From Sipunculus nudus (taxonomy: Eukaryota > Annelida > Sipuncula > Golfingiida > Sipunculidae), in the NCBI GenBank assembly GCA_026874595.1, contig CM049319.1:19447101-19511100 (forward strand): DNA of 64,000 nt, written 5' to 3'. Numbering within the stretch: position 1 is the first letter of the stretch; each line of letters begins with the position of its first letter. Below the pieces are notes generated by a model. That model searched no databases. It worked only from the letters and a program-made list of their open reading frames with translations, and was not told where the DNA came from. The translations under genes and the position numbers were made by a program. Below, in pieces: positions 18,155-63,892 of the stretch.

Positions 18155-18499
18155 CCTGCATCATCATTTGTGTAGTACCTGAAACAGAAAACATGATCAT
18201 TTAATGATTACAGTACAGCCAAGCCCGCTTATTGTCATGTCGGTGGTGCATGCATAAATTATGATAATAGCCGGGATGTGACATGTGGGCTTCAACATTG
18301 ATGTCCTTTTGAGTCATAGAACTAGAAGATGCATTATGTATCAAATGTTTTTAATAATTTGTCAATAGAAAGGAAACAGAAAGGTTTCTGAATATTTTTA
18401 TTCCGGATATCATTTTAATGACTCAAACTTTCATGATCATCTTTATGATAAGACTGTTTTGGGAGTAAGCATTGTCATGCCATTGTCAACTTTCTGAAC

Positions 18500-24515: not shown

Positions 24516-27500
24516 ATGGCATCTTTATTTGAACAGTATGAGCAGGCAGCTACTCGCACAACTACAGGACAGAGGCGGCCCATTCAGGGACCAGTAAGTT
24601 TAAATATTTTGCATATATTAATCTGAGAAACACAATAAGCTGTGTTGGCCTGCAGTATGTAAAAAGCATGCATAAAATTAATTTTATGCCAATTTATTGT
24701 CAATTCAGATGTATTTACCAGCATGCAGGTAAATGGAATTCTTGGTAGAGAATTCTCTCTCCACAAAAAGTGTAGGTTCCTTGTAACCTTGTTACTATGT
24801 GCATGACCTGAATTATTTTTGGATCACTTGCAGTCCCCTGTCAGAGGTTCGTGGAATCATACATTACACAATATTTTAATGCCTGTAGATGAATACCCTG
24901 CACAAATTTATAATTTGTTTGTATGGCTGACATCTACCACTTGTTATGCATTGCTATACATTTGTGAATTTTAAAACTATTGCTCTTTTTCACAGACCAA
25001 TAAGTTTTATTTTAAGGGAGATTATGTTACCTTTAAATTATGAGGGTGAAAACTACATTATCATGTGTAAGTTTGACTAAAGGGTAAAGCTACATTTTAT
25101 AATAATATTGTAGTATTATTGTATCGCCAGACATAGTCTGGAGATACTATGGTTTAGGCACGGTCGCGCCGCCGCCGCCGCCGCAGAGATTTCTTTTGGA
25201 CACAATAACTCAAAAAATATTTCACGGATCTTTACCAAACTTGGTATATGTATAGATATGGGTGAGAGGACGACGCCTATTTAAAATGAGGTCATGACCT
25301 CAACTAGGAGAGTGACCCTGACCTTGAATAGGTTCAATTTTGGGGAAAATCACACAAATTCTTAAATATCTCAAGAAAACTTGCATGGATTGATCCCAAA
25401 ATCAAGTTGATCGAAGATCATGGATAGGGTTGTCATGTTCCAGAAACTGGTGGCGCCACCTATTATTCTTTACTTGTTTTCATGCCGTTTAATATCCCTA
25501 AAATTGCTACTTGACAGTACTGTGAGCATTATAAGTCAAAAACTAATGGACAAATTTCTTTCATATTATGCATATACATGGATATGGGTTATAGGATAAT
25601 GTTTATTTGAATAGGGGTTATGACCTTTCCAATGAGTGGCCTTGACCTTAAATATTGCCATATATTGTGAAAAATCACACAAAATCATTAATTTCTCAAT
25701 AAGGGATGCATGCATTGGTCCAAAAATCAACTTGACCCAAGATCTTGGATAGTGATGTCATGTACCGGAAACAGGTGGCGCCACCTGTTATTCTTTTACT
25801 TGTTTTCGTGCCGTTTAATACCCCATCATTGCCACTTAACAGTACATTTATAACCTGTGAGCATTATAAGTCAAAAACTAATGGACAGATTTCTTTCATA
25901 TTATGCATATACATAGACATGGGTTATGGGATGATGTATATATAAATTGGGGTCATGACCTTTCCTATAAGTGGCCTTGACCTTGAATATTGCCATATAT
26001 GGTGAAAATTACACACAAAATCATTAATATCTCAATAAGGGATGCATGCATTGGTCCAAAAATCAACATGTTCGAAGATCTTGGAAAGTATTGTCATGTA
26101 CCGGAAACAGGTGGCGCCACCTGTTATTCTTTTACTTGTTTTGTGCCATTTAATACCCCATCTTTGCCATTTATCAGTACTATGAGCATTATAAGTCAAA
26201 AACTAATGGACAAATTTCTTTCATATTATGCATATACATGGATATGGGTTATAGGATAATGTTTATTTGAATAGGGGTCATGACCTTTCCAATGAGTGGC
26301 CTTGACCTTGAATATTGCCATATATGGTGAAAATCACACAAAATCATTAATTTCTCAATAAGGGATGCATTGATTGGTCCAAAAATCAACTTGAACGAAG
26401 ATCTTGGATAGTGTTGTCTTGTACGGGAAACAGGTGGTGCCACCTGTTATTCTTTTACTTGTTTTCGTGCCGTTTAATACCCCATCATTGCCACTTAACA
26501 GTACTGTGAGCATTATAAGTCAAAAACTAATGGACAGATTTCTTGCATATACATAGACATGGGATAGGGGATGATGTATATTGAAATTTGGATCATGACC
26601 TTTTCTATGAGAATGACCTTTTCTATGAGTGTGGTCTGATATTAATTGTTGCTGAAGATGGGGGGCCATTTCTTAAAGGGGGGGGGGATTAATTGTCTGG
26701 AGATACTATGGCACCTGCGGTGCCAAGAAATATCTAGTTCCTTGTATAGGATAATAATATTTTTTTATTATCAAGTATTCATATCCACTATGGTGACTTT
26801 TCATCATTTGCTATTGCATTCTTCATGAAAAAATTGAACTAGCCAGTAAACATGATATGACCTCCAAATTAAAGAAGCTGATGAAACAGATCAGTTATTT
26901 TATAGTTTTGTCTTTTTTTGTATGTCTTTCTTTTGATTTCATATTTTAAAAATATCTGCAAATACAATTACACATAGATATTTGCACATAAGTCATACAT
27001 CGTATGCTGTGTAATAATAATCATTTTCAGTGGCGTGCATCTTTCATCTTTAATTCCAGGTTTCAACAGGATTTATTAATGCAAGACTCGAAGATGACTA
27101 CCCAATATTCAATAAGCAGAAAATCAATTTCAGGTATGGTTTAAGTCACTACTCAGTGTTTTATGTGTACAGGTATTGGTAACTTCTAGTATTGACTCTC
27201 TGCCATTTTTTTTGCAGCAAATATTATTCCTGTTTTCAATGCTGTACCTTTCTAAGACGGAAGAAAGCTGCCACATTTTTCTCTGTCTAACCTCTGCCTG
27301 GTATGATAGCTGTTGATGAACTTTGGCACCAGATGGCAAAACAGCTTGCTCTGATATATCTTTTTTCTGCAATATTAATTGCTGGCAAGGAAACATATTC
27401 TGAACAGTAAACACAATTGTTTTTATAACAAAATTGTAAAATGCAAAATGTATATTTCCCATAGGCACATTAACATGGGAATCTCTCCTGCAAAACAAAC

Positions 27501-30500
27501 TCACTTTTTTCAAAATGCTGATGCTGAGGTGTTCAATTCAATACTTTTCCTAATGAGGTTAACTGGGTGCAGCCATATTTACTAATGCAGCTGATAGGTT
27601 CAGCCAGTCAAAGTGCATCTGATACAAGCTCATCTCTCACATCTTTCACATTCTGATTGGTTCAACAACCTTGGTTCATTCCAACCTCTCATTACAAAAT
27701 CAAGGAAATGACCAAAACAAATAGTGCTTTGCAAAAACATTGTATATTTTAAGGGATGTAATCAGCAGCAATAGTATACCTATTCTTTTACACTATCAAT
27801 TCACTTTTGCTTTAAACCAAAGTGTCCAAGCAAAACCATCTCAGCAGATGGTCTCAGTACCTCCCTTTGAGCTGTTTAACATCTTGTTATGGCTTTTGCA
27901 TGTTAGTAAACACAGTCCACCTGTGTGTTCACAATAACAAGGCCATGTGACCAGAGATTGGATTTTGTGCATGCGCAAAAATCCCAAACAAAGAGTAGTC
28001 CCAAACTATACCATACATGGAACTTCATTTACTCTGATATATCTCTGCTGGATGGACATGGTGGTCCATAGGTGAAATGTAAATATATTGTTGAAGCTAT
28101 CACAACAAATTTGTACAACTCAGTCGAAATAATACAGGTAGCAGAGGTATTGTTCAGGGTCCTGAGCCAGAGTCATGAGATGTTTCAACCAGCGGGAACT
28201 TGTATTTCACATTTGGGGCCAAGTCAGGGTATCTCATGATTGACAGGTGTTGTGGCCCAGAGAGGCACACAGCCCCATGAGCTGTGTTTATGTTGATTGC
28301 CTGTGAACATGCCTAGTCCACTTTTTAGCGAACCTGTGAGCTTATGTGATGGTGCAACTTAGCGTCTGTGCGTCATGCGTCATCTGTATGTAAACCATAG
28401 CTATCTCAAAAATGGCAGGAGGTAGCATCACCAATTTTTTTGCAAAAAAATCTGTCGTCTGAAAAACTCTGTCAGATTTTGTTTATTAGCTCAGCTGACT
28501 GAAAGTCATCTGAGCTATAGCGATCACTCTTTGTCCGTCGTCCGTCTGTCTGTCAGTCTGTCTGTCGGTTAACCAGGCACAAATCGTAACCGCTAGAACT
28601 GGAATCTTCTTACTTGACATCCTGGGAGGTCCATGAAAAATCTCCTTGGAAACCAGAAATTAGGTCTCTGTTACCCATATCCTTCGAGCTATGGGGCCCC
28701 AAAGTACCCCCCAGAAAAGTCCAAAATTTCATACAAAAACTTCAATATCTCATTAACTACTTGACTGATGGTCATGATTTTTGGCATACATATTGATCAT
28801 GAGAGGTTCCATCAGTTCCTGAAGACTGGTGGCGCCACCTGTATTTTTCGATTTTTTACAAATTTTTTTCTCTATTTTTGAGACCTTTAAAAATGTGAAC
28901 ATCTGTTAACAAGGCACAAATCGTTATGACTGGACTTAGAATCTTCATTCTCGACACATTGAGAGACCTATGAAAAGTCTCCATGGAAACCAGAAATTAG
29001 GTCTCTGTTACCCATATCCTTCCAGCTATGGGGCCCCAAACTACCCCCCAGAAAAGTAAAAAATTTCAAACAAAACTTCAATATCTCATTAAATACTTGA
29101 CTGATGGTCATGATTTTTGTCATACATATTGATCATGAGATGTTCCATCACTTCCTGCAGACTGGTGGCGCCACCTGTATCGTTCAATTTTTTACGATTT
29201 TTTTTCTCTATTTTTGAGACCTTTCAAAATGTAAACATCTGTTAACAAGGCACAAATCATAAAGACTGGACCTAGAATCTTCATTCTTGACACACTGAGA
29301 GACCTATAAAAAGTCTCCATGGAAACCAGAAATTAGGTCTCTGTTACCCATATTCTTCGAGCTATGGAGCCCCAAAGTACCCCCAAGAAATGTAAAAAAT
29401 TTAATACAAAAACTTCAATATCTCATTAACTACTTGACTGATGGTCATGATTTGTGGCATAACTATTGATCATGAGATGTGTCATCACTTCATGCAGACT
29501 GGTGGTGCCACCTTTATTGTTCGATTTTTTACGATTTTTTCCTCTATTTTTGAGACCTGTAAGGATGCTGTCATCTGTTAGCATGGCACAAATCTTAATG
29601 ACTGGACCTAGAATCTTCATTCTTGACACACTGAGAGGTCCATGAAAAATATCCTTGGAAACCAGAAATTAGGTCTCTGTTAACCATATCCTTCGAGCTA
29701 GGGGGCCCCAAAGTACCCCCCCCCCCCCCCCAGAGTAGTCAAAAATTTCATACAAAAACTTCAATATCTCAATAACTACATCACTGATGGTCATGATTTT
29801 TGGCATACATATTGATTATGAAATGTTCCATCAGTTCCTGCAGACTTGTGGCGCCACCTGTATTTTTCGATTTTTTACGATTTTTTCCTCTATTTTTGAG
29901 ACCTTTAAGGATGCTGTCATCTGTTAACGTGGCACAAATCATAACGACTGGACCTAGAATCTTCATTCTTGACACACTGAGAGACCTATGAAAAGTCTCC
30001 ATGGAAACCAAAATTAGGTCTCTGTTACCCATATTCTTAGAGCTATGGAGCCGTAAAGTACCCCCAAGAAAAGTAAAAAATTTCATACAAAAACTTCAAT
30101 ATCTCATTAACTACTTGAATGATGGTCATGATTTGTTGCATAACTATTGATCATGAGATGTGTCATCTGTTCCTGCAGACTGGTGGCGCCACCTGTATCG
30201 TTTGATTTTTTACAATTTTTTCCTCTATTTTTGAGACCTTTAAGGATGCTGTCATCTGTTAGCATGGCACAAATAGTAACGACTGGACCTAGAATCTTCA
30301 TTCTCAACACACTAGAAGACCTATGAAAAGTCTCCATGGAAACCAGAAATTAGGTCTCTGTTACCCATATCCTTCGAGCTATGGGGCCCCAAAGTACCCC
30401 CCCAGAGTAGTCAAAAATTTCATACAAAAACTTCAATATCTCAATAACTACATCACTGATGGTCATGATTTTTGGCATACATATTGATTATGAGATGTTC

Positions 30501-33500
30501 CACTAGTTCCTGCAGACTGGTGGCGCCACCTATGTTATCTATCAAGAGGGTACAAATTGCAACAACTGGACCTAGAAACTTCATTCTTGTCATGCAAGGA
30601 GGCCCATGAAGAGTGCCTGTGGAAACTTGAAATTAGGTCTCTGTTAGCCATATCCTTCAAGCTATAGGACTCTGAAGTATCCCTCAGAATAATGGACAAT
30701 TTGATACAAAAGCTGAAGTATCTGAACAACTAATACGGAGATCATCATGATTCTTTGCATTGATATTGACCATTAAGTGTTTTTAGCTCAGCTGACTGTA
30801 AGTCATCTGAAGTATCCCTCAGAATAATGGACAATTTGATACAAAAGCTCAAGTATCTAAACAACTATTGCAGTGATCACCATGATTCTTTGCATGGATA
30901 TTGATCATGGAATGTGTCATCAGTTTCTGCAGTATGGTGGCGCCACCTGTATTTTTTTTATTTTTACGAATTTTTTTCTCTATTTTTGAGACCTCATAAG
31001 ATGCGTCATCTGTTAACATGGCACAAATCGTAACAACTGGACCTAGAATCTTCTCTCTTGACATGCTGAGAGGCCCATGAAAAGTTTCCTTTTAAACTTG
31101 AAATTAGGTCTCTGTTACCCATAACCTCTGAGCTATGGGGCTCCGAAGTACCCCCCAGAATAATGGAAAATTTGATACAAAAGCTCAAGTATCTGAACAA
31201 TTATTATATTGATCACCATGATTCTTTGCATGGATATTGATCATGAAATGTTTCATCAGTTTCTGCATTCTGGTGGCGCCACCTGTATTTTTTCAATTTT
31301 TAGCTCAGCTGACTGAAAGTCATCTGAGCTGTAGGGATCACCTTTTGTCCGTTGGCCGTCCGGCCATCCAGGCGTCTGTCTGTTAACAGGGCACAAATGG
31401 TAACCGCTAGACCGTGAATCTTCTTACTTAAAACCTGGGAGGTCTATGGAAATTCTCCTTGTAAACCTGAAATTAGGTCACTGTGACCTATATTCTTCGA
31501 GCTATGGGGTTCTGAAGTACCCCCCAGAATAATGCAAAATTTAATACAAAAGCTCAAGTATCTGAACAACTAATGCATTAATCACCATGATTCTTTGCAT
31601 GGATATTGATCATGGAGTGTTTCATCAATTTCTGGAGATTGGTGGCGCCACCTATATTTTTTTTATTTTTTACGATTTTTTTCTCTACTTTTGTGATCTT
31701 TAAACATTTGGTCATCTGTAAACAGGGCACAAATCATAATGACTGGACCTAGAATCTTCTGTCCTCACCTCCAGTGAAGCCCATAAAAGGTCTACATGGA
31801 AACCCGAAATAAGGTCCCTGTTACCCATATTCTGTGAGCTATGGGGCTCTGAAGTACCCCCCAGAATAAAGATTTGGTCATATATTAACAGGGCACAAAT
31901 CATAATGACTGGACCTAGAATCTTCTGTCCTCACCTCCAGGGAAGCCAATAAAGGTCTACATGGAAACCCGAAATAAGGTCCCTGTTACCCATATCCTTC
32001 ATGCTCTGGGGCTCCGAAGTACTCCCCAGAATAAAGATTTGGTCATCTGTTAACAGAGCACAATTATAATGACTTGACCTAGAATCTCCTTTCTTGATAT
32101 GCTGGGAGGCCCCTGAAAAGTCTCCTTGTGCACCTGAAATTACAGCTCTGTTACCCATATCCTTCATCCTATGCGGCTTTGAAATACTCCCCCAGAATAA
32201 ACATTTGGATTTGTTAACAGGGCACAAATCATAATAACTGGACCTAGAATTTTATTTTTTGACATGCTGGGAGACCCCTGAAAAGTCATCTTGTAAACCT
32301 TGAAAATAGGTGTCTGTTACCCATATCCTTCATGCTACAGAGCTCCATAGTACCCCAATGAATATTGGATGATTTTATACAAAAGTTCAAGTTTGGAAAA
32401 AATATTTCATTCAAATTTGACATTCAGATGATAAAATTACTTTTGTCAATGTCTTCCTGGTCAGCTGAGCGACATGACCCCTGGGTCACTTGTTTTTTTT
32501 TTCTTACTGCATTTTCTTAGATTTTATAGGGAAAAAGCTAAAAAAGATTTTAAAAATACTTTTCTCTGAAATTCTCCAGCCAAATTGTCCAATATTTCAT
32601 AGAAATGATCCCTGGAACAATTTCTCTTAAGTTTGTTTAAATGGTTCCAGTGCAGAGATTTTTGGCCGAATTACAGGAGGTTGAACTAAGTCATCTGTCA
32701 AAAAGGCACATTAAAATTAAAATCTCAGAAACGGCTGGAGCTATCATCACCAAATTTTATGCCAATATTTGTCACATAAGTCATATCTGAAATTGAGGTA
32801 TCAGTGGCACCACCTACATTGATCTGTTTTTTACAAGCAAAAATGTAATTTTTAGACTCCTCTAGCTTATACACTGTTTTATGAGGAAACTGTTAAGCTG
32901 ATCGGTTTAAACTTTGCAAGAATCATTCTTTGGTAGGGTTTTGCCATTTTTTAAAGAAAATATTTAGGAAAATGCAGCTTTAAAAAAGCAGTGTAGCCAA
33001 TTGAAAAAGGCTTTCAGTGTTTGAAAACAGATTTTACAACATGCAAAGTTTCAACATGCCAAGTCAGCCAGGTGAGGTCCAGACATCACCATGGCAACTG
33101 ACCTGGCTCTGTCTGGTGTATAGACGATGTGTATAGATGTCTAGACACATCATCTAGATGTCTAGACACATTGTCTAGGCGCAGAATGCCCAGATTAGAA
33201 CTAGTGGAACTATATCTTTCAACTGTTTGAAAAAACTTGGTTTGCATTTTTCCTAAATCTGTGAGCTTATGCTATGGTGTGGCATTGTCTGTTGTGAGTC
33301 ATAGCTATTTCAAAAAGAGCAGGAGCTAGCATCACCATATTTTTTTTTTTTTTAAATTTGTAATTTAAAAAAGCCTATAGGATTTTTGCTTATTTCTTGG
33401 CTAGCTGCATTTTCTAAGATGTTTTAGGGAAAAAGCTAAAAAAACATTTAAAAATGTTTTCTCTGAAAACCATGCTGGCAAATTGTCTGTTCATCTGTCC

Positions 33501-36500
33501 CAATAACCCCCCCTGGCAAAATATCCTGACTGATACATCCTAGTTTTAAAATGTCCTAGTCCTAAACTTCCAGGTCTGAAACATTCATTTTCCTAAAATA
33601 ATAATGACTAAGGTAGATATGCAGGACATAAGAGGATCAATATTAAATTTTAAAAATAATCCTCCATCCCTACTCCCAAACTTTGCACAGGTTCGCATTA
33701 GGCCTGTAGGCCTTGTTTTTAAATCTTGTGAACAGGAGTAGCCAAACAGTTTCAGTGAAATATTTTGGCAGGTACCACTTTAATTCAAAGAGAAGCTCCT
33801 ATTTTTTGTGTTAATTCAACATGCTTTATAGGTGATTAGGCCCCTTTACAGTGTATTGCAAACAACTGTACCATGGGACACTAATGTTACATTTTAATGT
33901 GAGGTAGGGGTGTAAGAAGTTCCATATTATTGCAGCCCCAAAGATCGCATAACTCAGCTGCGTGTGGGAAACAATCAGATCGTCCTGGGGATGAGCAGTA
34001 ACATACTAATGAGGATAGACCTTGAGCATCCTGACAAGCCAGATGGTAAGTTGATCACACCTAAAAAGTAGACATTTCCATGGCTTGAAATTGACAAAAA
34101 TTCTTGAAGGTAGTAGAGTTGGCAAAGCCAGAAAACTTACCAGACTTTCAAGGCTTTTACTGAACCTCATATTTTTAAACCCTTTGATTTTGATTATAAT
34201 GACACTGATTATAAATATTAACCAAAAAGTATCTTGCTGAGTTTGATTCTTGCTAAAATTCCATTGAACCACACATATTTAATGGTTTGAGAGGTAACTG
34301 GATATCCTTTGGTGTTGCCATGGAAACTTACTAGGAATTTAATGGATTTTGCTTAAACTCACTGTGATTATTTACTAGTTAAGGGAATAAGTTGTAAAAC
34401 ATATTCGATGATTGAAAGATTAAAAAGAGCCAATGATTTTAAATACCATCTATATTACTGTGAAATATGCTTTGTAGAATAATAACTAAAATATTGACAA
34501 AGTAAAAATTCAGTCAAACATGTACACCAATCTGAAAGGTCGAGTTACTGTCCAGGATGTTAACACTTAATTTGTTGCACAAGGTTAAGTTAATGCTGTT
34601 TGCTGTTTTGTGCCCCTTTTTCTATTAACAGAATAAGTATATTTTATCTGGATAATAAGACTTCTTTGGATGTACATATATAATCATTTGTGATAGATTA
34701 TGCAAAACTGCAAACAATTGAATTGATTATGAATGAAAATGAACAATCATTTATATTATCGATTAATTGGCATACCACGACTGTATACCAATAAAGTACC
34801 ATAAAAGAGTCTGATCTTTGGGAAATTGGGAATGAGGCTGAAGGTCAAGACTTCTGATGGCTCAATATGCATTCTTGTGGTGCTTTTGTTTTGTAGAGGT
34901 TGAGATTCCAAAGGCTGCTGAGGACAGGATATCTCAGTTATTCTTGGACCCTACTGGTCGTCATCTCATCATCTCCATGGCATCATCAGAGAACTACTAC
35001 CTGTCCAGAAACTCGCGCAAACCTAGGCCGCTCGGGAAACTCAAGGTTTGGCAATAAGATATGTGCACAACCTCACCCTAAATCAAGCACATACATATGT
35101 GATTGTTCATGGCATCTTATTCTTGGTCAGCTCACTCTCATATATATATGACTATATGACTATATTTTAGAGGATTCGGATGTGGTCCAAAAAAGCATTA
35201 TCAAAGCGTGATTCATGTCCCGTTGCAACAGACTGATGATGTCTAGATGCTGTTCACAGAGTATTTTTTGTTTTGCTTCTCTGCACCCTTCTCAAACCAA
35301 TAGGGTTTAATTTCTCCCATTTCCCGACGCTATGGGCTGCCATTTTGCATACACACTAAAACTCAGATGGCACAAGTTGCATGTTGTTTATGGTAATAGC
35401 TCTTGTATATATATAAAATATTTATTTTGCATCTTAGATCTTGATCTTCATTGTAACAACCCAACTCCCCAGTTACATACTACGTGCCGTGATCAGTAAT
35501 TTTAACGTTTTTGCTGCTATCTGATTGTAATAACTGAATGGCTGATTACTTGTTTTTATGCCCCCGCCACAAAGTGGCCGGGGCATATAGTTTTACCCAT
35601 GTCCGTCATTCCGTCCTTCCGTCCTTCCGTCATTCCGAAATCAAACAGTTGTATGGACTTTTTTTCGCAATGCCTGCAGATATTGGCCTGATTTTTGGTG
35701 TGTAAGCAGATATAGACCAGTTACAGATCGAGTTCGCGTTTCGTCCCAGTTGACCTATTTTTGACCGTTTTACGGCTCCTAAACTTAGAAAATTTCATGA
35801 AAAATAGAAATATTCATGACAGATACACATGTACAGACTTTTTTTCGCAATGCCTGTAGATATTGGCCTGATTTTTTGTGTGTGAGCAGATATAGACCAG
35901 TTACAGATCGAGTTCGCGTTTCGTTCTGGTTGACCTACTTTTGACCGTTTTACGGCTCCTGAACAGAGAAAATTTCATGAAAAATATGAAATTTCATGAC
36001 AAATACACATGTACAGACTTTTTTTCGCAGTGCCTGCAGATATTGGCCTGATTTTTGGTGTGTGGACAGATATAGACCAGTTACAGATCGAGTTCGCGTT
36101 TCGTTCTGGTTGACCTAGTTTTGACCGTTTTACGGCTCCTAAACTTAGAAAATTTCATAAAAAGGTGCACATGTATGGACTTTTTTTCGCAGTGCCTGCA
36201 GATACGGGCCTGATTTTTGGTGTGTAGGCAGATAATGACCAGTTACAGATCGAGTTCTTGTTTTGTCTCAGTTGACCTACTTTTGACCATTTGACTGCTC
36301 CTGAACATAGAAAGATTCATGAAAAATAGAAATATTAATGACAGATACACATGTACAGACTTTTTTTCGCAATGCCTGCAGATATTGGCCTGATTTTTGG
36401 TGTGTGGGCAGATATAGACCAGTTCCAGATCGAGTTTGGGTTTCGTCCCGGTTGACCTAATTTTGACCGTTTAACGGCTCCTAAACTTAGAAAATTTCAT

Positions 36501-39500
36501 GAAAAATAGAAATATTCATGACAGATACACATGTACAGACTTTTTTTTCGCAATGCCTGCAGATATTGGCCTGATTTTTTGTGTGTGAGCAGATATAGAC
36601 CAGTTACAGATCGAGTTCGCGTTTCGTTCTGGTTGACCTACTTTTGACCGTTTTACGGCTCCTGAACAGAGAAAATTTCATGAAAAATAGAAATATTCAT
36701 GACAGATACACATGTACGGACTTTTTTTCGCAATGCCTGTAGATATTGGCCTGATTTTTTGTGTGTGAGCAGATATAGACCAGTTACAGATCGAGTTCGC
36801 GTTTCGTTCTGGTTGACCTAATTTTGACCGTTTTACGGCTCCTGAACAGAGAAAATTTCATGAAAAATATGAAATTTCATGACAAATACACATGTACAGA
36901 CTTTTTTTCGCAGTGCCTGCAGATATTGGCCTGATTTTTGGTGTATGGACAGATATAGACCAGTTACAGATCGAGTTCGCGTTTCGTTCTGGTTGACCTA
37001 GTTTTGACCGTTTTACGGCTCCTAAACTTAGAAAATTTCATAAAAAGGTGCACATGTATGGATTTTTTTTCGCAGTGCCTGCAGATACGGGCCTGATTTT
37101 TGGTGTGTAGGCAGATAATGACCAGTTACAGATCGAGTTCTTGTTTTGTCTCAGTTGACCTACTTTTGACCATTTGACTGCTCCTGAACATAGAAAGTTT
37201 CATGAAAAATATAAATTTTCATAACAAATGCATATGTACTGACTTTTTTTCCTCAATGCCTGCAGATACCACCCTGATTTTTTATGTGTGGGCAGATAAT
37301 GACAGTTACAGATCGAGTTCGCGTTTCATCCCGGTTGACCTACTTTTGATTGTTTTACGGCTCCTAAACATAGAAAATTGCATGAAAGACAGAAATTTTT
37401 ATGGAAAATGCACATGTATGGACTTTTTTCACAATGCCTGCATATACTGGCATGATTTTTGGTGTGTTGCTTGATAATGACCCGTTACAGATCGAGTTTA
37501 CATTTTGCCCTTGTTGACCTACTTTTGACCATACGACACCTCCTGAACTTAAAAAATTTGTCAAAATTTTACAAATGTTTCTAATTTGCCCAAGGTGGGG
37601 GCATTTGTGTCGTTCCGACACATCTAGTTTTGTATTCAAATTAACATGCCATTAGCTAAAATTAGGGCAATGCAGATTCTCTGTACTCATTAAATTTAAC
37701 AAGTTTGTTTCTGTGTCATGCCTTACAAGTGTTAATCTCATAGCATATTTTGCAGGGACACAAACTGACATCTGTGGGCTGGAACCATGAGAGCACAACA
37801 GACACATCTACAGGAGAAATTCTTGTAGGGACTGACAAAGGTAACTAAGTACTGAATGAGCTTTTAATATTTCAGTTTATTATGTTGTGTATTGTAGTTT
37901 TCCTTTGTTGCTTTATCTTAACTGTGTAAGCTGAGAGTGAATATTCCAGTCAAAAGCCAAGCAAAATTATGGTATACCCACCCTCCATTCGTCTGTTAAC
38001 TTTTAGTGTTGCTGCAATAACTTACCAGTGCTTTGATGGATTTTCGCTAAACTCACCATAAGTACTAATCAACAGATTATCTCGCCCAAGTTGGATTATT
38101 TGCAACGTCCACGCATTTATTTAATAAGGTCATTGGTTACTCGGCCACTTGGTGGTGTAGCGGCGATAACTTACGAAGAATAAGAAGGATTTTGATTAAA
38201 TTCATCAGAAATGTAAATCAGTAAAATATCTCGCTTAAGTTAGAATTCCAGCAAAATCCATGCATATTTAATGAGGTCAAAGGTCACCGCATTTCAAAGG
38301 CACATCAGTGACTTACCAAAAATCCTATGGATTTACATGAAACTCATTAATGGTATTTACCATTAGACTTTCTTACCTGATATACATTCTCATCAAAGTT
38401 CATGCATGTTTAATGAGGTCAGAGGTCAACGTGATCCAACTTTGGGGTACCTTGGTGATGGTAACTAACAAAAATCCTATGGATTTACATGAAGCTCATT
38501 ATACATATTTACCAGTAGCCTTTCTAACCTGATTTACATTCTCATCAAAATTCATGCATATTTAATGAGTTCAGAGGTCACCGCACTTTGGAGGTAACTT
38601 AGTGACTTACAAAAATCCTATGGATTTACATGAAACTCGTAATACATACTTACCAATAGTTTCTCACCTGAATGACATTCTCATAAAAATTCATGCATAT
38701 TTAATGAGGTCAGAGGTCCAAAGATACAGGATAAGTGTATTATGCACATTTGTGATGCTCTTGTTATTATTAATAATATTTTAATTATTATTTTTGTAAT
38801 ATAATTTTGTTTTAGAAGTGGTCTTTTTTCTTTCTTTTCTTCAGATATTGAAAATACCTGAACATAATATTTTATCAAACACTGCCTTTTGCATTGCCTA
38901 TATTTAAGCTTCATTATCTTCATCTGTTTCACCAGAAACAAGAAATATAATAATTATTATATTTATATATTTCAGGACTACTGTTTGAGGTTGAAATACA
39001 GGCTGGGGATGATAATAGGTTTTTCCAAGCCAGTCTTGAACAATATGTAAAGCAGGTAAGCCTGATTCTATGTATGTATTATATCATTGCAGAATGTACC
39101 TCATAATTATGAATACTTTTAAATTTACTCTTTTATTTGGTGGATAAAGTCATATCCATCTGGTGTAGCCTCTGTATATGTGGGTATCGTCGGATATTTT
39201 ACCAATACTGGACTTACTAGGGCATCTCAAATATATTCTGTATCAATCTAGATTTCTGTATTGGCCCTGCATGAGAGTGTGTATATGTGCTTGTGTGTGT
39301 GCTTCAGAATAACTGTGAGTACATTGACAAATTTTCCATAAATTTGATATACTGTAGATTATTTAATATGTAAAACTTGAAAATGATATGAATGATTATT
39401 TATCAACATTTTGAGATATTTTAATAATTGTTTGCATCAGTGTATTGTTTTCCAATATAGTATGTAAACATTTATTAAGTAACACCACAGATGTACAGCA

Positions 39501-42500
39501 AAACACAATTAAAACCTAACATTATTAACTACAGATATAGCATTTATCTGCAGTCAGGATCACTATATATATAGATCTACCACTCTAAAGTACCTCACAG
39601 TAATACAACTTCACACCTGTTCTGCAGCTGATGCTCCCTTCACGAATGTTCGAGGTAACGAAGCCCACCTGCCTCCCATCTTGTCTCATTATAGTTACTG
39701 TAGTTGTCATGTTTAAACTGCATGATGCATGTACAGTAAAACTCCACTGGCAAGCACCTTTCCAAGATTGGAGAATCCTAATTGAAACAAGCCCTGTCTA
39801 GTTTTGGTAAGCTAGTGCTGTTTATAACACTCTTTACATAGTTGTTCAGGCCAGTGAGAGTCGGGTATTGCATTGTGCATCCAAGTTTTACATCAATAAT
39901 ATCCCACACTCCTTGGTCTGAATATATTTGGCACTGGGCCAGTTGCCTACTGGTAGTGGCAAATCCCATTTTTACCCTGCTGAAGGAAACAGTGGTTAGG
40001 AGGAAGGATTTACTTAATGAATACAACATATAACCACTGCATGATGAGTGTAGCCATGTTTAAGCAGAAATGTTAATATTGGTCACCAGCCAAAGTAGAG
40101 CTATTTGTTATTAATAAAATTTTTGGTTGGAAATTCCAGTATCAAATATCATATTCAAATAATCTTATAACATTTCAGTAATTTTTTAGCTCAGCTGACT
40201 TTCAGTCATGCTGGGCTATAGCGATGGGTCTTTGTCCGGCGTCCTTCCGTCTGTCCGTCCGGCTGGCCGTCCGGCCGGCCGTTAGCAGGGCACAAATCGT
40301 AACCGTAGGGGCCAGGGCCATGAACCCTATGCAGTCTTAGAGGTTATAAAAAGATCTCCTTGCAAACCTGAAATTAGGTCACTGCGACCTATATTCTCAA
40401 AGTAATGGGGTGTGTTTGCACCCCCCAGAAATAACTCTTTGAGACAAAATTTTCATCCCAAACCTTCCATCTTTCACATACAGCTCACCTACCAACAGGG
40501 GAAGAACCATAATTTTTTTTAGGTCAAAAGGTCAAAGGTCAAGGTCACAGGAGCCTCTTCTTTGAAAAGCCTGTGGATGCATTTTAAGCCAACCCTTTCA
40601 TCCCAATTCTTTGATCTTTCACATATAGCTCACCTACTAATTTGGAGAAGAATCCTATAGATTTTGAGGTCACAAGGTCAAAGGTCAGGGTCACAGGATC
40701 CACTTCTTTGAAAAGGTAGTGGACACATTTCAAGCTAGACTTTTCATTCCAAACCTTCCAGCACTGATATCGCTTCTCTGCCAACAGGGGAAAAGACCTG
40801 TTGATTTTGAGGTCAAAGGTCAAGTTGTACCTTCCATCTGTCATATATGGCTTACCTACCAATAAGGGAAGAAGCCTATTGATGTTGAGGTCAAAAAGTC
40901 AAAGGTCAAGGTCACAATATTTAATTGTTCTAAATGCTTGTGAGCATATTTCAAGTGTAACTGTTCAACCCAAACCTTCAGTCTTTCACATATGCCACAT
41001 CTATGCATCACTCAGTTTGACTCAAACTTCATATTTATGGGTCTTTTTGCTTGAATAAATAACTTATTGATTTGGGGTCAGCTGGTTATCAGGTTATAGG
41101 TTGCAGGTCAAAGTTATTCACCCATTGGTTGCCAAGTAATTACACCAGATTTAAGTGGTCAGTAGTTACCCATCATTTAGAAAGAATCCAGTTGATATAT
41201 GGGCTAAAGGCCAAGGTCATAGGTCAGGGATGTTCACAATTACTTATTTTATAGACCATCTCTATTTTTCTTGTATATATAACAATCCCACTCCAGCTGG
41301 TACATCTCCCTGTGTGGCTGTAATTGTGAGTGACACTGGTGACATATGACTCCCTTTTGTATCAGCCTATTAAGTGATAAGGCTCAGTGATAAGTACCTC
41401 GTTACTTCATAACAAAAACACTGTTGTCAGAATGCTTCAGCCAGGCATTCAGACTATGAGAGTATAGTATTAAGGTTTAGCTACTGATTTATAAGATGAT
41501 GGGAACATTTTGCAGTTTATTTTATGGAATCCTAGCAATAAACTTAGTTTCCTAGATATCTGAATATTTTAATATATATATCACCACATATAAAAGCAAG
41601 TGTTTGTTCTCATAATATGTGGATGTGTACCTTGATTTAGGATGGCTTTTGTTTTATTTCAAGACTCTTAGTCATGCTTTCTGCATTTCTTTTCTTTCAG
41701 GTTTTGCAGTTTACCTACCCTGCTGACCCCATTGAAAAGCAGAGTGATAATAAAAATATTGGACTTACAATTGCATATCTATAAATCTTATATGAGGGCC
41801 TGGACATGCCTTTTGAATTATTTTGGGCATTTATTACTGGATAATTTGCCCCAAGTTTGGTCTCTTATTGGAGAATGTGGGATATCAAATGTCATACTTG
41901 TCAGAAATCCATTATGTCTGCCAGTTAGCCACCTTAGAAATTCTTTCTTCAGTGCAGTTTCAGTAATTTTTCTTTAATGTTTGGTCCGATTTAGAGAATG
42001 TTTGTTGTCTGATTTCAGACTTGTCAGAAGTCCAATATGGCCACCAGGCAACCATCTTTTAATTCCTTTTGATCATATTATCTCAAGAACAGTTAAAGTG
42101 AATGCAGTTGGATGTATATTTATGTAATCTTGTAAAGGATTGGGTCAAATATTTCTGAATAAATATTACCATCATTTATAAAAGTGCAGTACAGTTGGCT
42201 TGTATTGAATAAAAATTCATACAGAAGCACCTGTTTCTCAATAATTCTTGCATGTATTTCCTTGATTTTTGCTATATATTTTGATCTTATATTTGCCCTT
42301 TGTGGTGTTCCTTTTGAGACTGACAGGTTTCAAGCAAGCTGTTGGAATAGTTCCTGATAGCTTAACAATCATGCATTTTCCTCAGACCATCAATTCACTG
42401 TGTTTTAACCAGACATAGGTGATATATATTTCTGTTGTCATAGAAAATTTTCAACAAATTGGCAAATTGGTTCTTCAAAATTTGACTGGAAGTTGTGAAT

Positions 42501-52032: not shown

Positions 52033-52081
<49 letters not shown>

Positions 52082-52466
52082 GAGAAATATAATCGATTTA
52101 TTATACTAAGTTGAATTCCGTACACCAATAGTAGAATTATTAATTGTTGATCAATCGTTACTTTAGATAATCACTAAGGTTTTGCCAGGTCACGTCGATG
52201 CCATAGTCCTTTGATCCAGCCAAACAAGTTCGCTGGTGATCACTGGTTGATTAATTATGCTTCAGTCAGGCTGCAATCAAACTTGGGTGCCTATCCCTCG
52301 GGGCCGGGCAATGTGCTATTACAATTGACTGGCTCAAGGTTATCTGCATTGGTCAACAGATGTAACAAATGCCCTCTGTGATCTTAACCGGCTTAAGGTC
52401 ATCCGCACTGACCAACGACTGTGACGAGAACCCGTTTCGACTTTCAGGTACTGCAAGCCTTGTTAA

Positions 52467-52512
<46 letters not shown>

Positions 52513-55500
52513 TATCAATATATATATATATCAATATATATATATATATATTTAATAATGTTTCATTCAGTCAATTAAGATTTGTTTAAATTTGTTTCAA
52601 TCAATTAGGCACTCATCATGTGGGTTAAGGAAAACTGTAAAGAAGGGATCGCCGTCAATGGTAAAGATCTTGCCTTGGAGGCGCGCCGTCGCACATCTGA
52701 CCCATCTTTTAAAGCATCAAGTGGCTGGCTTGAAAAATTCAAAAAACCACACACTTTGAGCACAAGGCAGAGAACTTCTATTGGCCAAAAATTACCCCTT
52801 GACTATGAAACCAAAATGATGAACTTCCACAAATACGTCATAAAACTGCGCAAGACTCACCAATACCACCTGTGTGACATATACAACATGGACGAAACCC
52901 CTACTCGCTTTGATATGCCATCTTCCCGCACCCTGCATGACATAGGAGAAAAAACTGTACACATAAAATCGACGAATTCTGAAAAGAAGGGGTTCACTAC
53001 CGTACTCACCGTCAGAGCCGATGGATCCAAACTAAAGCCGTGGGTGATTTTCAAAGGTGTCCATGACCCGAAGGTGTCTGTCAGAGGGGTGTCAATTCAT
53101 GTCCAGAAAAAGGGTTATATAGATGAAAATGGTAAGTATAATAATGGAGATGAGAGCAGATTTTGAATGAAAGAAATGTGCAAATATTGAAATTACTTTA
53201 TTATTGCGCGAGTATAAAAAAAGAGGGACAACCCATCTGTAAAGAAGCAATTATGGACATTTTTAATGGAATTTTAAAATAAAACTGAATACTTGTCTCG
53301 CACATAAAAATAAACTATTGCATATAAATAAATGTAAACGTGCATATATACGATAGTGAAAGGTTTGTAGTGTCGACATATCACATTCATTCATTTGAGA
53401 CCCTGTTCATAATTGAATTATTATTATATATTTTAGGCTGTCTGGACTGGATCCGTTCCAACTTCCCAAAACGAACAAAGGATGAGCCGCGCCGTCTTCT
53501 CATCTGGGACTCCTGTTCCTCACATCTGACGGAAGGGGTGAAGAAAGAACTTGCATCACGCAATATTGATATGGCCGTGATTCCTGGTGGTCTGACATCA
53601 ATTCTTCAACCCTTAGATGTTTCGGTGAATAAACCGTTCAAAGACAACATGCGCACCTTGTGGAACAATTGGATGACGAGTGGCAAAGCGGAATATAATA
53701 CACAAGGAAAGCGGAAACCCCCAGCCAAGGAAACCGTGGTCAGCTGGGTCGGCGATGCATGGTCAAATATATCCAGCAGTGCGGTCACGAACGGATTTCT
53801 GAAGTGTGGGATTGCGAACTCTTTGGACGGAGAAGAAGACGACTATTTGTACAAGGAAATGCTGAAATCAGGGGAGAACTCCGAAGCTGATAATGATTCA
53901 GATACAGACCTAGCGGACTTGTTTGCCTCAGACTCTGAGGAACAGGAGTTTGAGGGGTTAAAATGAACTAGACAGTTTGTATTAAGTACACAGAATGAAA
54001 GAAAAACAGACTAGTGGCATTGACAGCTTTTAATTTCAATAAGTGCAATATCGTGATTTTGTATGACATTTTCATGACAAAATTGGAATGTATTAATAGA
54101 AAAAAATATTATTACTGAACACATTGTTTGCAAGTATCTTACTTTTTTTATTGCTATGAATGACTTTTGAATGAGTGAAGCCCTGTGTCCATAAGTCCCA
54201 TATAACCTGATATCTGATCTCATTTAATGTATATGAATACCTTGCCAGAATGAAATATCAGGCCATGATTGCTCATAGGGACTGATTTTAATGATAACTC
54301 TATCTCAATTAAAAAACGCAATAACATAAAATTAGGAAAACAAATCAGCAATATTTAATTTACAAATAACAAATAATTGTAAATAATACATTTACACACG
54401 GCTCCCATGCATGCGATACTGCTGCTAAGGGCGGCTTTCGAAAGTCGCCCTATTGTCGCCCACTTGCCGGCCCAAAAACGATGTCTGTCAGGAAGATACT
54501 CGGGAAACCCTTCTAGTATAAACCGCACAGTGCTTTCAGGAAAAAAACCTGATTTCAAGATTTTGAATTTCTTGATTAAATCGCAGTTTTTAGTAGAGAT
54601 TTTATGGTAGGTTTTGGTGTGGATCCAGAAAATGATCTGAATTCTGGAACAAAATCAAGATGTATTCACAAATGTACAGTCACTCATGCATGAATGAACC
54701 TAGAAATATGGGTTGAATGAATTACTGCAAACGTGGTTTTGGAGCATCACACAATAGGGAACCACCACACAGCAGAGGCTTGCATTCCTTGGAATGCAGA
54801 TTTCTAGTTTTTAGCTCAGCTGACATAAGTCATCTGAGCTATAGTAGTGGTCCTTTGTCCGTTGGCTGTCCGTTCATTTGTCCGTCCGTCTGTCCATCCA
54901 TTAAACTGGCACGTTTTGAAACCGTTGGACCTACGAATCTGAAATTCGGCATACCTTTAGATATCCCCAAAATCTCCTACCATACCGAAAATTGGGTCAC
55001 TAGGACTTTGTTCCTTCGAATTCTTAAGGAAAAATCTCCATTTTCCATTTAAAACCCATTGTTACACTTCAAGACTGCCTAATTCAAACTACTGATCTGA
55101 TATTGACCATTTTTAATATAGTAATTCCTCTTTATTTCCTATGTACATACCAGAAATTACTTCAATATTTTTTAAATTCTTGAAGTAATGGGCCCAAACA
55201 TAATGCACTTTATAAAAAATCAGGAAATATGTTTACTCCCTTAACTTGAGAATTGCTGAAGCTAGAGACTTTCTTTCAGGTATATAACTATATTTAATCA
55301 AGATTCAATGGTATTCCCAAAATTAGATCTGAATTTTTAAAATTTTTTTTAAGTTATTAGCATAAATATAAAATCAGTACCTTAAATTTTACCCAGTTTT
55401 GACCATGGCACATTTTTTCCCTGTAACTGCTGTGGATTTAATTTTCACAGCATGTTACCACAAGCTTTTCATCTCTAAACATCTGAAACCATTTGATCAA

Positions 55501-58500
55501 AAACTGTAGATTTTATTCAAGTTTTCAAGCACCATGTATTGTTCAGATCACGCAAATGTTATGCAGTTTGCTAGAGCTCAGCTCCCCAGCTTCCCAGGCC
55601 AGCTTTCAGCTCCCAAAATTTGGCATACAGTTAGATGTCCCCCAAACCCCGTACCATACCACTAGAGCTTCATTCCTTTGAGATATTAAGAAAAACTTTA
55701 ATTTTCAATTAAAAACCCATTTTTTAACTTCAAGACTGCCTAATATCAAAACCACTGATCTGACTGTGATCATATAAAATATACATGTTCTTCTATTTAT
55801 ACTCTATGCACATGCCAGAATTGATGTGAGTATTGCTAAATTGTTTTAAGTTATGGGCCCGAACATAATGCACTTTGTCAGAAAGAAATATATTTACTCC
55901 CATAACATGAAAATTGCTGTGGCTAGAGATTTCTTCTTTTTTTTTTTCAGGGATATAACATTATTTAATCAAGATTCAATGGAATACCCAAAATTAGTTC
56001 TGAATTTTTCAATTTTTATAAGTTATTAGTATAAATATAAAATCAGTACCTTAAATTTTGCCAAATTTTGATCATGGCATGTTTGTTTCCTGTAAGCACT
56101 GATGATATGAATTTTCATATCATGCAGAAATAAGGATTTCAGCTTGTTAGTTTTGAAAGTTGAAAGAAATTGACCAAAAACTGTAGCATTTATTAAAGTT
56201 TATTATGAGACCATGTCAGACCAAGGGTCTACCCAGCCCCTTCAGTCACCTGTATGCCCTCTACTTATCCTTTCAGGCCAATTATGCACGCTTGACGTGG
56301 GGCATATACTTGCAGCTGGGCAGCTTATTGCTGGCCACAGCTGATCCAGGTGTCCAACCCAGCTCATCTATTAGTTGTTTAGAGCAACAGAATAACAATA
56401 AACAATGAATAAATAAATTTTTATAGGTCTATAATAACGACTTTTAAAATAATCAGTAGAAAAGGAATGTGACAGTTGATGAGTAACAGGGAATTACCTT
56501 GCAGTTACTGATGTTTTATGGATTTTGTATGGATTGTTGAAAATGTATTCCAAGTAACGCCATAGAGTCACCTATGGTATTTTTCTTTTCAATTTTAATA
56601 ATGAAAAAAAATCAAATTATATTGTTCTTTACTATTATGGATTATATGAAGGAAATTAATGATTGACAAAGATGCAGTTAATAATATTAATCTAAATTCC
56701 CAGGTCTTTTCCAGGTGTTTCAGCTTGTTAATTTATATTTATTTCAAAATTGAAAAAAAGTTAAATTTTACTCAGACAGGTACAGATTAAAGATGTCAAT
56801 ATGTTTCACTTATGACATTCAGACACTTGGCTGTAACAGCTGTCACAAGACTATGTAAATAATCAATATTTATATTACTGGTTCCTATATTTCAGTTAAT
56901 AAAATTAAACTTGCCCATCTCTAGTTTTCTCCTTGTATTATAATGTACATATAATGGTTTCATAGCTGAGATACTTCAATTTTTTTTCTGATACATTTTT
57001 TTAAATAAAAAAATTGAATATGATAAAAAATCAGATCTTAGACAAGTTCTCATTATGATTTCTGTAATGTTAATAATTGTCATAAGACTCTTGCTATGTC
57101 TAGTGCATAGATTGATGTGAAGGTAGTCCAAAGTGAATATTATGGTTTTATTTTTTTAATGTAAATAAAATTAATAAAACCAGGTACTTATGATCATTAT
57201 TTAAATTTGTGATATTTGTTTATTCTGGATTCTCAAGCACTTTGTTTGGCTGAAACTGAATAAATATCAGACAGTGTGCAGTACTTTGCAAATGTATTTG
57301 AATGCAAATATGAAAATGCACTCCATAATTTCATGTATAAGGATAGGAATTCAGGTAAAAATGAAAATATTTGAATACAAATGCAAATAATTTCAAAATG
57401 TATTCATGAATGCATTCATGAATATATTCTTTAAAATTATTTTAATAATTTATTTTGATCATATTATTAAGAACATCTTTACAGATGATACTGTTATAAT
57501 TTTTAATTTAAATTATATATGACTTAATATTTGTTATTAATTTTTTATAAATATTGTGCTAGTGCTACTCTTAGGTAGGGATAACCTGTTATTATTAAAT
57601 AACAGTTAACCCATTTGTAAAAAGTACAATTAACATGACTGATAATGGACAGTTTTTTTTTTTGTCAAATTAATCTACTGCAATGTAGATAAAAAATATA
57701 TGGCCAAGTCAAAACATCATTAACAACTGTAAATAATATAAATGACATCAGTCCTCTTTCCTGCCTCCAAGGATCTTTTCAAAATCTTACATAACTTGAG
57801 TTAAACACCATCAACTCAGAATAGTTTATATTATCACACAAAACAAGCATTTGCCTACCTCCTCTAAAACACCATTTCCAACTGTGAATAATTAATATAA
57901 ATGACATCAATCCTCTTTCTTGTCTCCAAGGATCTTATAAAAATCTTACATAATTTGAGTTAAACACCATCAACTCATAATACAGCTTATATTATCACAC
58001 ACAACCAGCATTTGCCTACCTCCTCTTCCAAATCATATTTTGTGATCATATATAACAGCTTAGCTCCAATATCCATGGGTCCCTTGTTTCATGTCATTGA
58101 TTGCTGATACCATCATGTATTCAACCACACATAGATGATGATTCAAATGTGCCTTCATTTGTCATGTTATAGAATCTTAAAAATTAAAGTGTAATGTATA
58201 TATTATATCAAATTAGGTATTAAATTTAAAATATAATTTTCTGCAAATTTAGCCTTACTTAAGATTTATGTGATGAGGTGTTATAGATATGTGGTTTCTT
58301 TGGTTACAGGGATGTGTGGCAGATGTACCTGGACATGGGCAAATTTGATTTGGCAAAATCCTACTGTCAGGTAAAACAGAAAAAAACACTACTGAAGACT
58401 AATTTTAGCTAGAACTCTGTTCACTGCAAGTTGCAGTAATGGCCTAAAGCATGGCAATGGGCTAATGATAAATCTGATAATTGTCTTTCTCAACTAGTTT

Positions 58501-61826: not shown

Positions 61827-62510
61827 GTTAGCCAACTTATTTAAAATTTCAAAAAAAAGGATTAAAAAAGGTGAAAAAGTAAATGTGAAATTTTGAATTG
61901 CTGTACTACTCTGTTGCTTTCAAAAGAAAGTAATGTGAATAGATGACACCTTATTGAAGACTAGCTTTGTGTAGGTTCTTAATCTTATACATTAGCTTTT
62001 AGGTGCTTTGCCCCCTTCCTCAGGTGGGAATCTGTGACACAGGTACTTACTCTTCATGAGCCAATGCAAGAGGGGACACCTGAGGAAAGGGGCTGAGCAC
62101 CTGAAAGCTAGTGTTTAAGAACCTACACAAAGCAAGTCTTCAAAAAAGGTGTCAACCATTTACATTACTTTTGGAAAAAGTAAATGTATGTCTTGTTAAG
62201 AGGCATGTTTGTTGCAGCTAATTTACATATACATATAGTTTCTTATAATCTTCCATAAAAATGATTAAAAAGAAAGTAATATTGTTTAATATAATTACAA
62301 TATAAACTAGTGTTGAGAAGATACTTTTATATTTGAAGTTTTCTGATTTTACAACATACTTTGTTTCATTGGTTGTTTCCTGACTCTGTTATATTGAAAC
62401 AAATGAAAAAAAATCTCACACCAGAGGTTTTGAATGTTAATACAATTCAACAATTGTAATTGTTCCTGCCAAGTGCAGATCTGAAATTGATTTGCAGAAG
62501 ACCATTTGGC

Positions 62511-63892
62511 ATTATTGTATCCGCCAAAACGAAGTTTTGCGGATAATATGTTTTTGACCGGGTTCTGCCACCACCGTATTCGTTTCCGGAAAATTCCTCT
62601 GAGACTACTGGACTGATTTTTCCGAAACTTACACCAATTATCGGGTCACATGTGAACTGGTGCCTAACAAATTGGCGTTGACCTCTGACCTTTTCTCTCT
62701 GCCCAGCGTCCATTTGTGTGTCTGTTTCCACACATTAACCCACATATCTTGGGAACCGTTTGACCGATCAGGAAAAGAATTTTGTACAAATGTAGCTCTT
62801 GGATAGCTTTATAACATACACAAAAAATGGTGGCGCCACCTGCAACCATGTTTGCACAGTGTCCATCTGTTCATCTGCCTTGGGTTAAAATCACTCATAT
62901 CTCTGCAGTGGTTTGACATATCTGCCTAACATTTTGCAGGTTTATCTCGAGAACATTTTGACCAACTGGGCCAAAATTTGTTATGTGTATAGATCTAACA
63001 TAGCTCTTTATCATACGCAAAACTGGTGGCACCACCTGCAATCATTTTTGCACAGCATCCGTCTGTTTGTCTGCCATGGGATAAAATCACTCATATCTCG
63101 GCAGTGGTTTGACATATCTGCCTAAAATTTTGCCGGTTTATACATCCTTGACAGCTTTCTTGTTTTATGACAGGTGGCACCACCTACATTCTAGTTTATG
63201 CTGCAGACATCCAAGCTCATATCTCGAGAACAGTTTGACCAATTGGGCCAAAATTTGTTATGTATATAGACTTCACATAGCTCTTTATCATACACAAAAC
63301 TGGAGGGACCACCTGCAACCATTTTTGCACAGCGTCCATCTGTTTGTCTGCCATGGGCTAAAATCACTCATATATCAGTAGTGGTTCGACTTGTTTGCCT
63401 AAAATAATGCGTGTTTATACATCTTGGATAGCTTTCCCGATTTTTTTTTGGCAGGTAGCGCCACCTACATTTATGTTAACACTGCAGACATTCAGGCTCA
63501 TATCTCAGGACTGGTTGGACATATCCCCCTGAAATTTTGTGTGTGTATAGATCTCACATAGTTCTTAATCATACACAAAATTGGTGGTGCCACCTGCCAC
63601 CATTTTTGCACAAGTCCTTCTGTTTGTCTGCTGTGGGATAAAATCACTCATATACATGTAGTGGTTTGACTTATCTGCCTAAAATTTTGCATATGTATAC
63701 AACTTGGACAGCTTTCTGGATTTTGTGGTAGGTGGCACAACCTACATACACATTTTGGCTGTAGACATCCATGCTAATATGCAACACACCTCACTCTATT
63801 TCCCCTTGCCACTCAATCCATGCCTCACTTTACCCGTTCCACTCTGATTTTGGCGGATACATCTAGTCACTTGTCGACTACCTGTATTCTAG
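62511..63892 (+). mobile_element. Hairpin-ended element, family B (VPS18 intron 17)
   Basis: 5' end: ATTATTGTATC, then the hairpin TATCCGCCAAAAC, loop GAA, GTTTTGCGGATA (62518-62545). 3' end: TTTTGGCGGATAC (63848-63860), an exact 13-bp inverse of GTATCCGCCAAAA. It is followed by a TAGTC...GACTA hairpin (63864-63880) and CTAG (63889-63892) before TT. GGTGGCGCCACC variants recur at 62832, 63028, 63176, 63305, 63457, 63586 and 63733, alternately about 129 and 150 bp apart. The stretch 61827-62510 before it is plain AT-rich intron. Confidence 0.75.

Follow-up and report, generated by a model that had tools for sequence, protein, structure and literature searches.

Probable Helentron-associated interspersed elements with a shared end design in the genome of Sipunculus nudus

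A 64-kb stretch of the Sipunculus nudus genome (contig CM049319.1, positions 19,447,101 to 19,511,100; G000:C14:19447101-19511100 in our numbering; hereafter the window), taken from an assembly of 1.43 Gb in 153 contigs, holds repeat families, labelled A to E, that look unrelated inside and alike at their ends, and it raises the question of how such elements came to share one end design and what moves them. The first-pass annotation of the window had considered it probable that a single Helentron-like machinery mobilises all of them. Our analysis indicates that families A to E, together with two further families (F and G), are very probably Helentron-associated interspersed elements (HINEs), that is, non-autonomous elements, and supports one class of machinery with several cognate lineages.

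End design and insertion sites

The end motifs named for families A to E were found where the first-pass annotation had placed them, and its claim of one end architecture was borne out by these motifs, by an end-finder compared with shuffled sequence, and by genome counts. The design common to A to D and G consists of a conserved 5' boundary and an arm of 11-14 nt in a hairpin with a 3-nt loop, usually with one unpaired base; the elements adjoin T-runs, and the terminal CTWG is followed by TT. The end-finder, which scanned both strands of the window for a hairpin arm, its inverted copy, a 3' palindrome, and CTWG-T, recovered A, B1, C, and D1 (three 5' starts being given for D1) and one low-complexity pair, and it missed B2, E, and the D copies at 40188 and 54808, all of which are more degraded; in three Markov-shuffled windows, scanned on one strand each, it gave 0, 1, and 0 matches. 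Looser models of the A to E ends gave 96 matches in the window and the scanned loci (some of them one hairpin counted on both strands) versus 0 with reversed models. In the whole genome, exact arm matches (forward + reverse; in brackets, the same pattern read backwards as a control) numbered 834+839 for A (10+11), 6658+6632 for B (14+7), 1834+1844 for C (3+2), 24978+25239 for D (9+7), and 3613+3488 for E (23+19).

Both arms of the subterminal inverted repeat were read in copies of A, B, C, D, E, and G, as had been described for A to E. The predicted 5' hairpins of A to D were upheld by folding (z, -4.8 to -5.9), and that of G was identified by reading. A short 3' palindrome was read in every family and in further copies; it lies 0-9 nt before the CTWG and overlaps it in E, so that the earlier description of a second palindrome stands but its distance of 2-13 nt does not. 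The 3' ends of B, D, and E folded no better than shuffles (z, -0.9, -0.4, and -1.1), and their palindromes are supported because they are repeated across copies, not by folding energy.

The true ends were examined in 30 insertions of which both flanks were read (A, 11; B, 11; C, 4; D, 2; E, 2); fetched copies with an end missing, unclear, or outside the piece were left out (1 of 10 for B, 5 of 8 for C, and 7 of 8 for E). Note that the 3' end of two of the C copies (L076 and L077) was found later with a looser end model. TT directly followed the 3' CTAG (A, B, and C) or CTTG (D and E) in all 30 insertions, in agreement with the CTAG or CTTG and T proposed before, and on the 5' side T occupied position -2 in 28 insertions and position -1 in 26. 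The only clean empty site is that of an A copy (L033) in a host minisatellite; when its joined flanks were compared with the neighbouring units, five of five alignments differed by exactly TT, with no longer target duplication. Thus, the comparison of termini, flanks, and empty sites that the first-pass annotation had suggested confirmed the ends, showed a gain of TT only at the A site, and gave no duplication of a cut-and-paste type.

In its usual form, the second hairpin arm of A, B, C, D, and G departs once from the perfect complement, 5-8 bp from the loop, by a mismatch in A, C, and D and by a one-base bulge in B and G. All 10 A copies had the A variant, and all nine hairpin-bearing B copies had the B bulge (a few had extra changes), these fetched copies having been selected partly on an exact 3' repeat. 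The 3' subterminal repeat is usually the full complement of the first arm, from which the A and C copies of the window differ by one base. The stem base left free in D was T in 97, A in 2, C in 1, and the pairing G in none of 100 matches listed of 26,103 (all in the first 2.5 Mb of contig C1); in C it was C in 95, T in 5, and G in none of 100 listed of 2,824. Descent from few master copies could account for the defect inside a single family; its occurrence in five families suggests that the one-defect hairpin is functional. In bacteria, the IS200/IS605 transposase TnpA, a Y1 enzyme, is directed in single-strand transposition by imperfect hairpins with an unpaired base, to which the hairpins described here are compared by analogy only.

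The interiors of A to E had been called unrelated. At large this holds, but A, B, and D share a box, GGTGGCGCCACC, which sits in the tandem units of A, B1, B2, and D1 in 12 exact copies in the window; followed by TG, it has 99,817 matches in the genome versus 3 for the reversed pattern. The likeness among the three interiors is confined to this box, the surroundings differing by eye, and a literature search on it gave nothing relevant by title.

Autonomous partners and alternative explanations

At least 143 matches to the Pfam domain Helitron_like_N were found in the genome, and nine Rep loci (among R1 to R5 below) were fetched at length. The search for a Rep/helicase Helentron with the same ends, recommended in the first-pass annotation, was successful for D and for the new family G. 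The D partner, R2a (contig C17), of about 14.2 kb, has a D hairpin at 64-91, an open Rep/helicase frame of 2342 aa, and a D 3' end at 14189-14222, and it was the only Rep locus with a full pair of family ends in the end-finder (R1c, R3, R4, and R5 gave no full pair; several low-complexity pairs were discounted). R2b (contig C5) is about 96-98% identical to R2a, and the match ends right after CACTTGTTT. R3, with about 71% DNA identity to R2, has a D-type 3' end; the comparison of R3a with R3b yields no boundaries because host-like DNA is shared on both sides within one contig, and the two are probably a segmental duplication. R4, a relative of R2a, has a D-like arm without the palindrome. Elsewhere, a D hairpin (C1:71790322, plus strand) precedes a Rep match of that strand (71800017) by 9.7 kb. 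The same nested B element was found inside both R2a and R2b (L014/L024 and L016/L025), a HINE riding in an autonomous Helentron.

Family G was found through R1a and R1b and has the same design in other letters. On R1b (C7:31563968-31589513), its 5' hairpin is GCTTGCCGGAAATC-TTC-GATTTCCGCAAGC, preceded by ATTATT, and its 3' end is TGACC-tct-GGTCATCTTG, followed by TTT; the two ends are 25.5 kb apart. This Helentron is 98-99% identical between contigs C7 and C11 and contains 148-bp tandem arrays (L007-L010, L026-L029, L094, and L095). In R1a, G copies stand head to tail, joined as CTTG-TT-GCTTGCC with only TT between the CTTG and the next hairpin, a junction that is only consistent with the proposed single-strand rolling-circle transposition. 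Pfam domains in the Rep elements were Helitron_like_N, PIF1, DUF6570, and Exo_endo_phos, with OTU in R1a and a Herpes_teg_N match in R2a and R4. The R1 and R2 proteins, compared over large parts, were 31% identical over 1524 positions. Since each lineage nevertheless has its own end letters in the same design, the design is common to deep Rep lineages and the letters look lineage-specific.

These observations would fit the following mechanism. A Helentron Rep/helicase would recognise ends that flank a disposable, usually tandem-repeated interior; Rep would nick at the terminal T, the helicase, starting at the 5' hairpin, would peel one strand away as far as a stop at the 3' palindrome and CTWG, and this strand would be joined to DNA at a T-rich target. 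Each Rep lineage would read its own arm sequence, and the unrelated-looking families would then be parallel sets of one design.

Several points weigh against this reading. As to the partners, none of A, B, C, and E formed the outer ends of an autonomous element in the nine fetched loci; the R2b frame is broken (1124 + 741 aa), with its 5' end outside the fetched piece; D-like sequence lies upstream of the first D hairpin of R2a, the true outermost 5' end of which may lie further upstream; no 5' end of R3 was found in the fetched locus; the R1 Rep frame is antisense to the element ends; and the endonuclease match of R2a is under the Pfam cut-off (20.5 vs 24.5 bits), that of R4 to Exo_endo_phos_2 being above it (32.7 vs 27.4). 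As to the ends, E has no 5' hairpin (folding z, +1.2). As to the sites, a B copy in a host tandem repeat (L061) does not give a clean site, the difference being TT in one of four alignments and 3 bases in the others, according to which repeat unit is compared; E sequence without D1 was found in seven loci (L078, L081, L082, and L084-L087; 68-84% identity), but this empty site is within a T-run and not resolvable to the base; and a 2-bp TT duplication is not distinguishable from a terminal T at each end. The insertion sites found here match HINE empty sites in the literature, at which the apportioning of the flanking Ts is likewise left undecided (PMC4067079).

The earlier claim that one machinery moves all families therefore stands in part: Helentron-type mobilisation is supported by the TT targets, the lack of a longer duplication, and the D ends on elements with Rep, PIF1, and endonuclease-like domains, but a single machinery is not, R2 bearing D ends, R3 a D-type 3' end, and R1 G ends. 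A single enzyme that reads the hairpin shape and CTWG-T instead of the letters would explain why A, B, C, D, and G are alike in shape, including the one unpaired base, and why CTWG-TT is common to the families. We consider it improbable, because the arm letters differ between two autonomous lineages with 31% protein identity, because R2 and R3 share the D-type 3' letters, as letter-specific recognition predicts, and because E is without the hairpin. Canonical Helitrons (5' TC, 3' CTRR, insertion between A and T) would account for the CTAG of A, B, and C, which fits CTRR, and for the palindrome near the 3' end, but this identity was rejected as very unlikely, since it is contradicted by the TT after the 3' end and the CTTG of D, E, and G, the 5' ends are not TC, and endonuclease-like domains are present in the partners of D and G. 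Fold-back elements or miniature inverted-repeat transposable elements (MITEs) moved by a cut-and-paste transposase, to which the inverted repeats near both ends and the MITE-like length and copy number would point, are just as hard to credit in view of the subterminal repeats, the asymmetric ends, and the TT-only A site and 2-3 base B site, and are contradicted for D and G by the same ends on Rep/helicase elements.

Strand sharing along contig C1

The strand of the elements was compared between families along contig C1 by using 5'-end patterns (100 listed matches of C, 100 listed of E, 46 listed of B below 24.4 Mb, and seven matches of a D subset below 20 Mb). One C match (C1:4435213; L075, with a minus-strand D alongside) was listed and counted as plus, although its sequence is that of the second arm in an element on the minus strand. 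Pairs from different families were on the same strand at a ratio of 50:1 within 20 kb (30:1 outside the first 1.1 Mb), 45:19 at 20-50 kb (27:19 outside the first 1.1 Mb), and 205:151 at 200-400 kb; with rotated strand labels, the 20-kb value was reached in 0 of 300 trials. Among the clusters with more than one family (gaps of 20 kb or less), 22 of 24 were strand-pure versus about eight expected if independent, as estimated from cluster sizes. Adjacent clusters agreed at 36:15 when 20-50 kb apart (30:15 outside the first 1.1 Mb), 26:18 at 50-100 kb, and 29:18 at 100-200 kb.

The 100 listed D hairpins of C1 were on the minus strand at 61:1 from 96 to 1175 kb and on the plus strand at 10:0 from 1237 to 1469 kb, followed by 3 minus, 2 plus, 11 minus, and so on; by reading, hairpins with the loops ATA, GAA, and GTA change strand together. 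B, C, and E matches shared the strand of the nearest D hairpin at 43:6 (12:2 beyond 1.2 Mb); rotated D labels reached the observed 43 in 4 of 99 trials, and this nearest-D test alone is modest. The D strand also agreed in L090-L093, and in L053 and L088; L089-L093, which are rich in HINE sequence, had been picked as at or next to such pairs, with D having no part in the choice. A list of 12-base D matches had suggested opposite D strands after 501 kb and was dropped, because it misses minus-strand matches (as does the list of box matches) and some of its plus matches may be 3' ends of minus elements; the hairpin list replaces it for the D strand. Family A showed no co-orientation: a B, C, or E element lay within 45 kb of six of the seven tested copies, and the strands agreed in three cases and differed in the other three. 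For G the effect was not clear (seven hand-thinned matches listed below 2 Mb; 5:2 against the nearest D). Strand sharing was seen on C1 from 0.1 to 24 Mb; it was strongest within 20 kb and, at the start of the contig, extended to 1 Mb. A literature search on Helitron strand and orientation gave nothing relevant by title.

The shared strand may come only from nesting of one HINE in another, or from composites copied as one unit. The window and L088 have D inserted at almost the same point of E, E lies in C (L078), B lies in E (L082) and in R2, and L090 and L091 share 588 bp at 98% with a D 3' end beside B sequence. Against this, the spacings of the concordant pairs are many and different, up to 20 kb, D hairpins with three loops hold one strand over 1.1 Mb and, by reading, switch together, and host T-runs are only slightly asymmetric (91:79). 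Nesting and the copying of composites do occur and account for part of the sharing, hardly for the megabase runs with mixed subfamilies; as the whole explanation we regard them as possible but doubtful.

Transcription, replication, and selection are candidate causes, and unistrand clusters of PIWI-interacting RNAs are another possible one. As a tentative proposal, which we hold to be conceivable and not yet the favoured explanation, Helentron elements might insert in a fixed orientation to a directional chromosomal process that exposes single-stranded DNA, be it the transcription of genes or the movement of replication forks; the strands of the HINE copies, which number in the tens of thousands, would then record that direction in a form readable from sequence, and the one-defect 5' hairpin would be a Rep recognition or start signal, as in the bacterial single-strand transposons. 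In the window, a plus-strand VPS18-like host gene has one exon confirmed through Pfam, and E, D1, C, and D2 are placed in sense between further upstream exons read by eye only; a D remnant (at 7082) is antisense to the open frame 7328-8344. The window is one locus, and these placements decide nothing on the cause of strand sharing.

Window features, known relatives, and significance

The features of the window are collected in Table 1. D1 contains a second full 5' end (hairpin) at 31303, and no 3' end of D3 was found with the end models.

Table 1. Elements and a host exon in the window (positions are those of the window)
Feature	Position	Strand	Remarks
Degraded family D 3' end remnant	2309..2341	+	Read in window
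Family D 3' end remnant	7082..7114	-	End model
Family F relative, 3' end	11849-11995	-	HINE-like
Family B element B2	18848..19757	-	End model
Family A element	25121..26737	+	5' hairpin 25121-25145; 3' subterminal repeat from 26695; 3' CTAG then TT; ten other copies
Interior palindrome GGTGGCGCCACC	25449..31652	.	Exact at 25449, 25774, 26110 (A); 28828, 29164, 30182, 30519, 30936, 31272, 31641 (D1); 19440 (B2); 62829 (B1)
Family E element	28328..33715	+	Split by D1; 3' end AGGCCTGTAGGCCTTG then TTT; without 5' hairpin
Family D element D1	28488..32492	+	Nested in E; 5' hairpin 28489; 3' end CACTTG; E copies without D1 exist
Family C element	35558..37627	+	Hairpin 35558-35586; 3' palindrome TGTGTCG-ttc-CGACACA; CTAG
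Family D element D2	40188..42562	+	Degenerate 5' hairpin; good 3' end GCTGAGCGTCATGACCCATGGGTCACTTG
VPS18-like exon (Pep3_Vps18 propeller)	46630..46974	+	Pfam match
Family F (new label), 3' part	54663..54808	+	Ends CATTCC-tt-GGAATGCAGATTTCTAG then TTTTT
Family D element D3	54814..56280	+	5' end only; right border approximate; directly after family F 3' end
Family B element B1	62517..63892	+	Hairpin with one-base bulge; 3' end TATTCTAG

Other open frames of the window include one of 471 aa at 853-2265 (plus strand) with a YqaJ-like recombinase domain and a PHD-finger match under the cut-off, a DDE_Tnp_4 transposase frame at 3590-4903 (minus strand), and a Tc5/DDE_1-type transposase split over two frames at 52609-53963 (plus strand). 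A 245-bp stretch at 61927-62171 matches its own reverse complement at 75%. The minus-strand frame 17312-18160 looks archaemetzincin-like, for which Pfam and PDB searches gave no confirmation; PDB searches with two frames of the window gave no match.

The elements are HINEs, a kind already known from mites, flies, and oysters, and the published anatomy agrees with theirs and supports this assignment (PMC4067079, PMC7492417). HINEs of Metaseiulus, Culex, and Drosophila, including DINE-1, have subterminal inverted repeats of 12-15 bp, a palindromic 5' end, a 3' palindrome, a TT target without further duplication, and autonomous Helentron partners, and one Drosophila Helentron has its Rep frame in the minus orientation (PMC4067079). 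The S. nudus elements resemble them in the subterminal repeats, the 5' palindrome of A to D and G, the 3' palindrome, the TT target, the partners of D and G, and one minus Rep frame, and differ in their letters, the 25.5-kb partner, the one unpaired base in the hairpins of five families, and the box GGTGGCGCCACC. In Crassostrea gigas, Cg_HINEs and Pearl have a subterminal inverted repeat of 11-12 bp with a complementary repeat, a satellite-like tandem interior, a 3' palindrome, a T-rich target, and several families per genome, some Cg_HINEs carrying GTCY/GTCC microsatellites (PMC7492417). All of these traits of design, interior, palindrome, target, and family number recur here, and D and C start with GTCC-type runs. 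In that study, the oyster HINEs could not be related to any autonomous Helentron, whereas D and G are linked to their own. Helitron2 and canonical Helitrons, as treated in PMC4067079, are similar in the Rep-helicase protein and the palindrome before the 3' end, and the elements described here differ from them in the TT target, the CTWG ends, the subterminal repeats, and the endonuclease-like domain.

What is new is the direct link, within one genome, between satellite-bearing HINEs and autonomous Helentrons, and the evidence that distinct Rep lineages have retained the same end design while differing in its letters. As a recognition feature, the one-defect hairpin is a concrete candidate. If the strand domains hold genome-wide, they would give unexpected information on where and how rolling-circle strands enter chromosomes, and the orientation of HINEs could serve as a record of the direction of transcription or replication.

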